The notes under the pieces: generated by a model
Told to the model about the DNA's origin: nothing
The model's input: the letters and a program-made list of their open reading frames with translations, nothing else
Databases searched by the model: none
Source of the DNA: a virus
Length of the DNA: 20,033 nt
Virus record (IMG/VR): IMGVR_UViG_3300020205_000714
Location: 1-20,033 of that record
Reading direction: 5' to 3' (one strand)
In this document: one piece after another, positions 17,467-19,318 of the stretch
How the letters are laid out: every line of letters starts with the position of its first letter
How positions within the stretch are numbered: position 1 is the stretch's first letter
Made by a program: the position numbers and the translations under genes

Positions 17467-17723
17467 GTGTTCTTCTCCTTGAGTTTGGCTTCGGTAGCTA
17501 TTTGAACGTCTTCTGCATATTCGCTAGCCGTCATAAATTGGTTGTAAGCCACGCCGTTTCTAACGAGTTTGCGCTCCTCATGCGTCAGCCCTACCCACTC
17601 ACTCTCAGCTTCTGTTACCAGTTGGGCAAAGCTTTCAAACTTCTCAATCTCCCTATTACTGGCGTGTCTGATAAAGCCAAGCCCTACCTTCTCAGCAACT
17701 TCAAATAGTTCATCGCGGGTCAT
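17463..17723 (-). CDS. Small helical protein of unknown function (86 aa)
   Basis: Second gene of the minus operon, coupled to the XRE gene and the next gene by ATGA overlaps. The sequence (MTRDELFEVAEKVGLGFIRH, then FESFAQLVTEAESEWVGLTH) is predominantly helical and acidic, without metal or catalytic motifs. Its position directly behind a regulator might suggest a partner role, as in two-gene regulatory or toxin-antitoxin cassettes, but nothing in the sequence supports a toxin. Confidence 0.7.
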   Translation of the reverse strand: MTRDELFEVAEKVGLGFIRHASNREIEKFESFAQLVTEAESEWVGLTHEERKLVRNGVAYNQFMTASEYAEDVQIATEAKLKEKNT

Positions 17724-18052
17724 ACTGCTACCTTTCTGTCAGACCTTCTTTTGGTGACATCTTCCAAGTTAGAAGCGGCAGTGTTAATTGCTGGATTGCT
17801 CACCTTAATAATTAAATTATCGTAATCGTGCAACTCTATTTCGATGCCTATTGACTTAAAGAAATACACACAGTCCAAAAGAAAATCTGCATTTGCTTTC
17901 ATTTCAAGAGTTTCGATCCGAGCAATAGTTGACTTGGCTACCCCCATCATTTCCGAAAAGTCTTGTTGATTGATCCCCGCCGCCGCTCTCGCAGTGCGGA
18001 TGGCAACGGCGACCTTTCCATTTAAATCTGGTTGCAGTTCATCTAGTGTCAT
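17720..18052 (-). CDS. XRE/Cro-type helix-turn-helix regulator (110 aa)
   Basis: Residues about 12-67 form an HTH_3 domain: VAVAIRTARAAAGINQQDFS is helix 1-2, and MMGVAKSTIARIE is the recognition turn and helix. The C-terminal 45 residues (IEIELHDYDNLIIKVSNPAI) are beta-like and may mediate dimerisation. First gene of the thirteen-gene minus operon, behind its own promoter and with AGGAG five bases before the ATG. It probably regulates its own operon; the palindromic sites at 9867 and 19319 are other candidate targets, but the same sequence is not present in its own promoter. Length fits a Cro-like rather than a cleavable CI repressor. Confidence 0.85.
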   Translation of the reverse strand: MTLDELQPDLNGKVAVAIRTARAAAGINQQDFSEMMGVAKSTIARIETLEMKANADFLLDCVYFFKSIGIEIELHDYDNLIIKVSNPAINTAASNLEDVTKRRSDRKVAV

Positions 18053-18080
18053 TGCTTCTCCTGTTGTAGATTTGTGTGCG

Positions 18081-18109
18081 ATTATACACTAAAACACAGC
18101 TAAGTACAA
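18081..18109 (-). promoter_or_regulatory. Promoter of the XRE-led minus operon
   Basis: On the minus strand TTGTAC (18109-18104), a 17-base spacer and a perfect TATAAT (18086-18081). Transcription would begin near 18074, 22 bases before the XRE ATG. The bases GTGT...ACAC around the -10 (18088-18073) form a short inverted repeat that could be an operator. Confidence 0.65.
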
Positions 18110-18155
18110 AGAAGTTCAATAGTATTTACCCGTAGCCTGTAAAAAGGCATAGGTT

Positions 18156-18204
18156 CCCCAAGGGTGAGAAGCTCTCTCCCTCTCCCAGCGAAGCTCACTT
18201 GGGG
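18156..18204 (-). ncRNA. Stable hairpin in the structured non-coding region
   Basis: CCCCAAG (18156-18162) pairs with CTTGGGG (18198-18204). The stem continues inward as TGAG with CTCA across a two-base bulge, enclosing a purine-rich loop. It belongs to the region 18110-18400, which has many inverted repeats and no convincing gene. Orientation is taken from its neighbours. Confidence 0.4.
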
Positions 18205-18275
18205 CTTGCCTAGAGTACGCAGAACGTAGCGATTCGTCTGTAGCGGTCTTGTCTCACCATGTCCCACTACATTGT

Positions 18276-18298
18276 CCAGTCCCTCGCTAACAGGCTGG
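18276..18298 (-). ncRNA. Hairpin with the recurring GUUAGCG loop (copy Z)
   Basis: On the minus strand CCAGCCU and AGG-GA-CUGG pair, with a two-base bulge, around the loop GUUAGCG. The same seven-base loop tops hairpins in elements X and Y, with different stems. The downstream element shared by X and Y is not found here, so Z may be a partial relative or a domain of a larger RNA. Confidence 0.5.
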
Positions 18299-18395
18299 GC
18301 GGCTTTTCCTGGGGGTGTGACCAGTGCCGGTGTTCTCTTCCGCGCCACCCATGCAGGTGCTTGCTATCGTGCGGAGTACGGCTGTCGAGGGAGGA

Positions 18396-18490
18396 GGAAC
18401 TAAGTCGGCTCACATAAAGCAGTGTAGCTTTTGCATTTCGTCTGACTTTTAAATCTGCGGAGGCGCTAACCCACCGCCCGACCTAGTTCC
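18396..18490 (-). ncRNA. Twin structured RNA element X
   Basis: On the minus strand a 13-pair closing stem joins GGAACUAGGUCGG (18490-18478) to CCGACUUAGUUCC (18408-18396). One of its pairs is G-U, which exists only on this strand. Directly inside is the hairpin GCGGUGG-GUUAGCG-CCUCCGC, then 31 variable bases, then ACACUGCUUUAUGUG, which can form a short hairpin. Element Y has the same order, the same loop and the same 3' element, but a different closing stem. It begins four bases after the T-run of the small RNA gene. No protein reading frame explains it. Confidence 0.65.
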
Positions 18491-18591
18491 AAAATAAAAA
18501 AGGCTGTTTAGAAGTGCGTCCGGTAGGAACCTTGCCTAATATCTCTCGCCACGAAAGTATTAGGTAAGGCGGAACGCACATCTAAACAGCC
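18491..18591 (-). terminator. Intrinsic terminator ending the small RNA
   Basis: The 18-base arms at 18574-18591 and 18502-18519 pair at 17 positions and are followed on the minus strand by TTTTTTATTTT (18501-18491). The arms enclose the inner hairpin, so the terminator and the RNA body are one structure. Confidence 0.75.
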
Positions 18592-18615
18592 TGATTCATT
18601 GCTTCCTACGGCAAC
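18495..18615 (-). ncRNA. Small structured RNA gene (about 120 nt)
   Basis: The RNA would start near 18615, seven bases after a consensus promoter, and end in the T-run at about 18495. Its fold is an outer stem of 17/18 pairs (18574-18591 with 18502-18519) and an inner hairpin. In the inner hairpin 18558-18569 pairs with 18530-18541 (11 of 12), extended by CUUUCG and CGAGAG around a UGG triloop. The 5' leader GUAGGAA (18609-18603) is perfectly complementary to the junction UUCCUAC (18529-18523), which would make a pseudoknot. A five-codon reading frame begins in the leader. The layout recalls phage immunity RNAs such as P1/P7 C4 and P4 CI, but I recognise no family sequence. Confidence 0.7.
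18582..18599 (-). other. Five-codon leader reading frame in the small RNA
   Basis: ATG AAT CAG GCT GTT TAG (MNQAV) has AGGA four bases upstream, within the segment that can form the pseudoknot. Its last codons are the 5' arm of the outer stem. It could be a chance frame or a control peptide linking translation to folding. Confidence 0.3.
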
Positions 18616-18621
18616 GAGCGG

Positions 18622-18650
18622 AATATATCAAACGCTAATAGGCTTGTCAA
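18622..18650 (-). promoter_or_regulatory. Strong promoter of the small RNA
   Basis: On the minus strand a perfect TTGACA (18650-18645), a 17-base spacer and TATATT (18627-18622). Direct 11-bp repeats lie just upstream of the -35. Confidence 0.75.
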
Positions 18651-18664
18651 TAGTTCATGGGAAT

Positions 18665-18693
18665 TTACCGGACTATTACCGGACTATTACCGG
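18665..18693. repeat. Direct 11-bp iterons upstream of the small RNA promoter
   Basis: TTACCGGACTA occurs twice head to tail (18665-18675, 18676-18686), followed by TTACCGG (18687-18693). The spacing equals one DNA helical turn, so bound proteins would line up on one face. The array lies at about -50 to -79 from the predicted start, a usual place for an activator. Confidence 0.7.
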
Positions 18694-18722
18694 TCAAATA
18701 CGACACGGTGTCGCTTTTGGAG

Positions 18723-18805
18723 ATGTTGGTGGGCACATGAAGCAGTGTTCTGTAAAAACCGAACTAAGGAAATACAAGCGGCGCTAACCCGCTTACCACC
18801 AACAC
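18723..18805 (-). ncRNA. Twin structured RNA element Y
   Basis: On the minus strand the closing stem pairs UGUUGGUGG (18804-18796) with CCACCAACA (18732-18724), plus one outer G-U pair that exists only on this strand. One base inside is the hairpin AAGCGG-GUUAGCG-CCGCUU (18794-18776), then 27 variable bases, then ACACUGCUUCAUGUG (18748-18734), which differs from X at one position. Loops and the 3' element are conserved relative to X while all stems differ but still pair. It lies between the VRR-NUC terminator and the iterons. I found no clear promoter of its own. Confidence 0.65.
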
Positions 18806-18895
18806 GACTGGAGACTGAAGCCAGCGGCAACTGGAGATTGCATAGGCTGAAACTCTGCAACCTTTATCCGACGATCCCCATGCGTGATGCCTCTG

Positions 18896-18923
18896 AAAAA
18901 AGTGGCCCCGATTAAGGAGCCAC
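18896..18923 (-). terminator. Intrinsic terminator after the VRR-NUC gene
   Basis: On the minus strand GTGGCTCC (18923-18916) and GGGGCCAC (18909-18902) form eight pairs, one of them U-G, around a six-base loop. TTTTTT (18901-18896) follows at once. It lies 57 bases after the nuclease stop and separates that transcript from the structured RNA region. Confidence 0.8.
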
Positions 18924-18979
18924 AAAACCAATCAAAGGAAAAAAGCAACCAACAACCAGCCCTCTGGTATGAGCATATA

Positions 18980-19267
18980 TTACTTGACCCATTTGATAAT
19001 TTCAAGTGCTTGTTCAACAGAATTTACAATAACTAGCATTCCACCACGCCATTCGTTAAAGAACTTCTGCTCCGGCTCGGTCAGCTTCCTCGCAGACGGA
19101 ACCTTGTCCCCATCCTTAACTTCCATCAGGATGGTGTACCCCTTGTACCCAACCAGGAGATCAGGTATCCCGTCACCCTGAGAAATAATCCGCACGACCG
19201 CGCCAGCTTTACGCAAGGCATCTACGATCTTGTTCTGGTTGGCATCTATTCTGTTGGCGTATCTCAT
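18980..19267 (-). CDS. VRR-NUC-type PD-(D/E)XK nuclease (95 aa)
   Basis: A complete small nuclease domain is visible: an N-terminal helix (ANQNKIVDALRKAGAVVRII), GDGIPDLLVGYKG with the first catalytic Asp, and TILMEVKDG, the E-x-K pair of the PD-(D/E)XK core. It ends with LTEPEQKFFNEW, then a strand-helix (GMLVIVNSVEQALEII). Stand-alone VRR-NUC proteins are common in phages and are thought to cut branched DNA, like Holliday-junction resolvases. The ATG at 19267 has AGGAG five bases upstream; a longer reading from 19300 is less likely. It diverges from the operon that contains another PD-(D/E)XK nuclease. Confidence 0.9.
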   Translation of the reverse strand: MRYANRIDANQNKIVDALRKAGAVVRIISQGDGIPDLLVGYKGYTILMEVKDGDKVPSARKLTEPEQKFFNEWRGGMLVIVNSVEQALEIIKWVK

Positions 19268-19290
19268 AGCATCTCCTGTCTGATGCAAAT

Positions 19291-19318
19291 ATTTTATCAT
19301 ACCTGTTGCAAGTTACAA
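19291..19318 (-). promoter_or_regulatory. Promoter of the VRR-NUC gene
   Basis: On the minus strand TTGTAA (19318-19313), a 16-base spacer and TAAAAT (19296-19291). The predicted leader is about 17 bases. It overlaps the divergent promoter P2 and abuts its operator, so one regulator could control both directions. Confidence 0.5.

Follow-up and report, generated by a model that had tools for sequence, protein, structure and literature searches.

GOLLD and ROOL are large phage-borne RNAs that carry kissing loops or pseudoknots, lie near tRNAs and have an unknown function (PMC12286853). They are the closest in setting to the locus described here, a 927-nucleotide (nt) gap between an XRE-type gene and a VRR-NUC gene in a freshwater phage, virus record IMGVR_UViG_3300020205_000714 of IMG/VR, whose 20,033 bases form the analyzed window, but their models fail to match it. 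The gap contains at least four structured RNA elements that are new: the A/B module (with two copies, Z and X), the C/D unit, PK-sRNA (a small RNA, sRNA) and the Y RNA. They have the orientation of the genes on either side and evolve as RNA in many phages. That these elements are RNAs is practically certain.

The locus resembles GOLLD, an ornate large RNA of phages and prophages, in its kissing loops, in its conserved and variable parts and, in some relatives only, in nearby tRNAs (PMC12286853); it differs in having separate elements with interchangeable inserts, which host chromosomes lack or seldom carry and which have no Rfam match. With ROOL it shares the phage origin, the multiple pseudoknots and, in some relatives only, a location near tRNAs (PMC12286853), whereas size and arrangement are different and an Rfam match is again lacking. 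The HK022 put RNA, set beside the present elements by description only, is likewise a structured RNA of phages, located in a leader close to terminators, but the gene contexts of the present elements vary. The C4 antisense RNA is also small, structured and of phage origin; its Rfam model finds no match.

The relation to GOLLD and ROOL raised by the original prediction is unsupported by the Rfam searches that it had proposed. In the window, the GOLLD, ROOL, OLE and C4 models matched nothing at the gathering score and, within 17800-19200, nothing at E ≤ 5 either; the scanned array loci of relatives were likewise free of GOLLD and ROOL matches. Whether the threshold was the gathering score or a relaxed one, none of the four elements was matched by any Rfam family, the only matches, all in relatives, being tRNAs, a sub-threshold int-alpA RNA and two at chance level. 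Searches confined to an open-access literature collection found no description of the four elements, so that an earlier one in subscription papers or outside preprints is possible. We consider the modular architecture a new kind; on a stricter view it would be one more form of large ornate phage RNA.

A minus-strand RNA locus in the gap

The gap (18053-18979) is bounded by two minus-strand genes, a VRR-NUC/Holliday-resolvase-like gene upstream (18980..19300; PHROG endonuclease and Holliday junction resolvase) and an XRE-type helix-turn-helix gene downstream (17720..18052; Pfam HTH_3). It is gene-free, as first noticed: the PHROG family search found no match for any open reading frame tested in it (best E 0.14), and a similarity search against phage records returned a single chance match. 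The minus strand of the gap folds with a z of -6.4 relative to shuffles, the plus strand more weakly (z -2.9). The RNA locus in the gap is real, has the minus-strand orientation and is made up of several structured elements; the idea of a large structured-RNA locus is thereby supported, but as several elements in at least two apparent transcription units and not as one 780-nt RNA. By element, the energy z is -8.2 for PK-sRNA, -4.5 for X, -1.2 for Z and -1.0 for the C/D unit; the last two are unremarkable, so that energy alone would have missed both.

The heptamer CGCTAAC, which reads GUUAGCG in the RNA, occurs exactly three times in the window, always on the plus strand and in the gap (18285, 18464 and 18782). 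The expectation is 1.84 for the whole window and both strands and about 0.036 for this stretch and strand, in agreement with the roughly 0.04 estimated at the outset. Of the three corresponding hairpins, only those of Z and X represent one element; the third belongs to a pseudoknot with UCGCUA in Y. A CCCCAAG/CTTGGGG stem, also pointed out earlier, is present in the window; its CCCCAAG side is unconserved, and the 3' ACCCUUGGGG of relatives pairs elsewhere.

The A/B module is predicted to be a three-way junction locked by kissing loops

On the minus strand, the A/B module is 80–95 nt long and comprises the 5' side of P1, P2 with the loop GUUAGCG, a linker of about 20–45 nt, P3 and the 3' side of P1. 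P3 is the hairpin formed by ACACUGCUUYAUGUG, with the loop UGCUUYAU. Z (18723..18804, minus strand) has the P1 stem GUUGGUGG/CCACCAAC, the P2 loop GUUAGCG and the P3 loop UGCUUCAU, while X (18400..18485, minus strand, with an outer stem reaching 18396-18490) carries the inverted repeat I6. The covariance model R1, built from 26 training sequences that include Z and X, scores them at 67.4 bits (E 1.3e-17) and 62.1 bits (E 4.6e-16), the next best score in the window being 10.5.

A two-word scan of viral contigs recovered at least about 120 stretches; judging from the letters that the pattern leaves free, about 100 of them are genuine A/B modules. An alignment-free test, anchored on the words and independent of the covariance model, covered 100 non-redundant cases: P2 was paired in 78-95% of them and showed up to six types of pair, while the mean length of P1 was 10.3 base pairs (bp) against 4.9 with swapped mates. 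Across 109 aligned matches, fitted to the covariance model, covariation reached 0.730, compared with 0.168 in shuffled and at most 0.204 in slid alignments, with 555 cells changed on both sides. Among the pairs that are retained, G-U is common.

The putative kissing contact joins positions 4-6 of the P2 loop to positions 2-4 of the P3 loop: AGC:GCU in 97 units and GGC:GCC in 11, with no mixed pair (AGC with GCC or GGC with GCU) among them. The GGC:GCC units of L197, L213, L223, L231 and L287 came from the C/D scan, which is blind to these letters; a dedicated scan for GGC:GCC gave mostly chance matches, of which the structurally consistent ones alone were retained. The P3 stem occurs as CAC/GUG, CGC/GCG or CCC/GGG. 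The fold predicted from these sequences is therefore a three-way junction in which contact between the two loops acts as a lock. The contigs, here and below, are possibly redundant. Pattern scans fix the conserved words, and part of the loop conservation therefore comes from the search itself; the covariation of stems and kissing positions is unaffected. Readings of the conserved words as integron attC-like, CRISPR-repeat-like or boxA-like loops were dropped because these words form the loops of hairpins whose stems covary.

The chromosome of Achromobacter dolens (L180) holds two A/B modules side by side, and in one of them the P3 stem is CCC/GGG. An identical A/B-bearing stretch is shared by records of Aeriscardovia (a metagenome-assembled genome, MAG), Vreelandella rituensis (an isolate) and a Clostridia MAG (L175, L176 and L177), and is most likely contaminating phage sequence.

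PK-sRNA and Y RNA

PK-sRNA (18495..18616, minus strand) is about 120 nt long, with a 5' end predicted from the promoter. It consists of a 5' hairpin GUUGC..GCAAU, whose loop GUAGGAA (18603-18609) is complementary to UUCCUAC (18523-18529) in a long terminator hairpin, followed by UUUUUUAUUUU. The predicted fold leaves both GUAGGAA and UUCCUAC unpaired, and in relatives the two partners vary jointly (GTCGTAG/CTACGAC, GTGGCAAC/GTTGCCAC, GTGGAAA/TTTCCAC and others). Complements of at least 7 bp are present in 68% of 28 strictly chosen loci, compared with 15% with swapped mates; the first, permissive pairing test was weak (7.7 versus 6.2 bp), and some automatic pseudoknot assignments in relatives are wrong helices. 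A strong sigma70-type promoter (18622..18650, minus strand; TTGACA-17-TATATT, 11/12) with a TG ahead of the -10 box precedes the element. Promoter-like sites (at least 9/12) stand before the PK-sRNA hairpin in 52% of relatives and in 8% of shuffled sequences, mostly 4-9 nt ahead, and a T-run lies upstream of Y in 116 of the 117 Y loci with enough sequence. The promoter and the T-run argue for PK-sRNA being transcribed on its own.

Directly upstream of this promoter, the 11-nt repeat TTACCGGACTA is found in three tandem copies (18665-18701); it is missing from L134 and is possibly an operator. In L312 and L324, PK-sRNA and Y lie beside genes for a scaffold-like protein and a coat protein, the latter confirmed by Pfam.

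Y, defined by GUACUCCRCACGANAGCAAG, is about 240 nt long and follows PK-sRNA, in the window with X between them. The pattern scan detected it in at least about 120 viral contigs, with a single 5' domain and several alternative bodies. The Y RNA of the window (18145..18383, minus strand) is of type A, with the conserved 5' domain GUACUCCGCACGAUAGCAAG..GCGCGGAAG and a body with two pseudoknots. The type A model comprises 14 sequences and 41 pairs in nine helices, the two pseudoknots included; 90% of its cells are paired, compared with 37-42% when slid, 19 pairs have changed on both sides, and covariation is 0.335 versus 0.153 in shuffles (0/500 shuffles as high). The GUUAGCG of Y (CGCTAAC at 18285-18291, plus strand) pairs with the downstream UCGCUA, with the covarying versions CAACGA/UCGUUG and CAGCGA/UCGCUG; the third CGCTAAC is therefore not another copy of the A/B loop.

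Taken together with the A/B data, these results bear on whether the gap acts at the DNA level, as a cruciform, a recombination site or a decayed gene. Inverted repeats are present in the DNA, but the frequent G-U pairs, the pseudoknots, the loop-loop covariation, the strand shared with the flanking genes and the presence of a promoter and a terminator make such an origin highly improbable.

The order of promoter, structured leader and terminator directly ahead of Y, with its nearly constant T-run, would suit a control of transcription in cis, with PK-sRNA as attenuator and either Y or A/B as antitermination RNA, comparable in principle to HK022 put, for the downstream operon. The upstream genes are often nucleases of the RusA type or YbcO-like, and in lambdoid phages such genes adjoin the antiterminator gene Q. 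However, Y is positioned after the terminator and not ahead of it, put is much smaller than the present elements, and the downstream genes are diverse, falling into 57 clusters among 109, ParB-like and coat genes included. Overall, the neighbors of Y differ from phage to phage (RusA-type resolvase, YbcO-like, VRR-NUC, ParB-like and coat genes), as do those of PK-sRNA, and we regard cis control as quite unlikely.

The C/D unit is a fixed joint with a variable insert

The C/D unit (18799..18886, minus strand), with the sequence CACGCAUGGGGAUC...AGUCUCCAGUCGUGU, lies beside Z. It is composed of the joint CACGCAU ... AGUCGUGU, a 7-bp stem GGGGAUC/AGUCUCC, in which 6/7 positions are paired, and an insert. 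The GGUUGCA/UGCAAUC hairpin described earlier near 18850 is present and can now be assigned to this variable insert. Relatives of the unit have in common the joint ACACGCAU/AGYCGUGU and the 7-bp stem, that is, a fixed internal-loop joint with a variable insert. They were detected in at least about 120 viral contigs; the stem is fully paired (7/7) in 178 of 184 cases, with numerous stem sequences, and the 107 distinct inserts form 68 clusters at 70%. The joint holds an A/B module instead in L014, L018 and L150, and a tRNA-like body, as judged by eye, in L203. Upstream of the unit, the VRR-NUC gene is followed by an intrinsic terminator (18902..18923, minus strand; GTGGCTCCTTAATCGGGGCCAC-TTTTTT), found at the same position in L129 and L134.

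Ordinary regulatory sRNAs and 3'-untranslated-region stabilizing structures, with no shared module logic, would account for the resemblance of PK-sRNA to a classical terminated sRNA and for the location of the C/D unit and Z after the VRR-NUC terminator. They fit poorly with two homologous A/B copies on either side of PK-sRNA in one phage, with covarying kissing loops and with joints that hold different modules in different phages, and this explanation appears very unlikely.

Units with tRNA-like bodies in arrays of relatives

Arrays in relatives contain units with the acceptor stem GUUGGUG/CACCAAC, a stem also found in A/B modules. The array units L212, L223, L322 and L045 score 34-48 bits with the Rfam tRNA model (gathering 29) and have acceptor, D and T arms; their long inserts are mostly in the anticodon region (L223, L322), while the model places that of L045 in the D arm. 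The spacing between D and T arms is 47-91 nt in five units, one of them in Itty13, compared with about 23 in a normal tRNA, and 22-35 in 17 other units. In L223:6178-6281, L322:482-622, L273, L254 and L183:2879, the acceptor, D and T arms are intact and 40-90 nt replace the normal anticodon arm. A tRNA lies within 2 kb of 18 of 130 C/D loci, and the enrichment of tRNAs near arrays is too weak for a claim.

Like tRNA, A/B modules are closed by a stem, have two loops that kiss and vary in the segment at the anticodon position. They differ in the loops, GUUAGCG and UGCUUYAU instead of D and T loops, and in the absence of CCA. The A/B modules of the window had no Rfam tRNA or ARAGORN match. A tRNA-like origin, or an imitation of tRNA, is plausible for A/B by analogy, because stem, two-loop contact and location of the variable segment correspond.

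Two further observations concern the arrays. An int-alpA RNA match below threshold (32.2 bits, gathering 35.8) stands beside a tRNA at L322:2554-2627. A recurring unit CTGTAATGGGT...AGAACCTTTC...GAGCACGTAGC (L096, L218, L183 and L184) occurs in uncultivated phages, in Pseudomonas phage Itty13 and in Klebsiella phage RCIP0114, with no match in the E. coli genomes searched.

The modules could also be domains of a single complex, joined by kissing loops into cages or fibers as in the RNA-only assemblies of GOLLD and ROOL. Kissing loops, multi-domain size, phage origin and the tRNA neighborhood of some relatives are compatible with this (PMC12286853), and the A/B kissing loops, identical in nearly all copies, would allow intermolecular pairing. 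Nevertheless, the elements have a promoter and a terminator between them, in L129 a gene as well, insert content is variable, unlike that of a fixed cage subunit, and the GOLLD, ROOL and OLE models of Rfam are unmatched; such an assembly is unlikely.

Distribution and genomic context

The locus persists in close relatives: each of the 19 closest VRR-NUC relatives (L122-L140, 74-88% identity) retains one or more of the elements, with the strand unchanged. Of the two outcomes that the original prediction had named as counting against it, a protein-family match and loss of the gap in close relatives, neither was encountered. Over all 54 VRR-NUC relatives, no element was found in 30, often the more distant ones. 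In bacteria, the whole GTDB collection yielded eight A/B stretches, including some from Curvibacter, Achromobacter and Variovorax; A/B was detected in 3/300 Burkholderiales genomes, two of the matches being weak, and the exact Y and C/D patterns in 0/399 sampled genomes. In the Burkholderiales genomes sampled, these elements are rare or absent. From L178-L182, our guess is that the host of the window phage belongs to the Burkholderiales. Among named phages, Y was found in one metagenomic record only.

The window carries terminase, portal, primase-like (Toprim), helicase, DNA methyltransferase and ParB-like genes and, according to ARAGORN and Rfam, no tRNA. A GroES-like co-chaperonin gene (1382-1798) adjoins the portal gene.

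Discussion

In the explanation that we favor, the VRR-NUC transcript would include the C/D unit and Z in its 3' portion, while the separate sigma70 promoter would drive PK-sRNA. Most transcripts would stop at the PK-sRNA terminator, and read-through past it would yield X and Y. The units would be compact modules with a long closing stem, locked by a kissing-loop or tRNA-like elbow, and a variable segment would occupy the place of the tRNA anticodon arm, as the A/B linker, the C/D insert and the replaced anticodon arms of relatives. Such RNAs most likely act in trans, as suggested by the differing gene neighbors of PK-sRNA and Y, with elbow or joint scaffolds presenting interchangeable RNA payloads. 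The scaffold-with-payload idea stems from the diverse C/D inserts, the joints that accept A/B modules and the tRNA units with long inserts. The payloads may bind and occupy host factors that handle RNA, or else recruit them; candidates include tRNA-processing enzymes, ribosomes, RNA polymerase and RNA-sensing defense proteins. With the trans-acting scaffold and payload mechanism included, we consider this explanation evenly poised between right and wrong. More tentatively, and less likely than not, phages of freshwater bacteria might have a combinatorial RNA display, in which tRNA-elbow, A/B-elbow and C/D-joint scaffolds evolve by the swapping of modules and carry exchangeable payloads that would probably serve as decoys or inhibitors against host defenses or RNA-handling enzymes.

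Several points weigh against the explanation that we favor. The comparison of A/B with the tRNA elbow is purely topological: the P3 stem is only 3 bp long and a CCA end is lacking. The window itself is devoid of tRNA. The energy and pairing evidence bears on folding, not on binding, and both the transcripts and the function of the elements are deduced here from sequence alone. The elements can stand apart from one another: a C/D, A/B or GUUGGUG-type unit lies within 2 kb upstream in just 23 of 89 Y loci. A decoy or scaffold is one among several possible uses of such RNAs.

The locus adds four RNA families with covarying pairs or complementary loops, three of them in at least about 120 viral contigs and none in Rfam. 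Phage DNA that seemed empty thereby becomes open to experiments on RNA: on an sRNA with a pseudoknot and its own promoter, on a large RNA with pseudoknots and on modules that put a tRNA-shaped frame to use for other RNA. Two phages in culture, Pseudomonas phage Itty13 and Klebsiella phage RCIP0114, carry related array units, so that laboratory tests are feasible.
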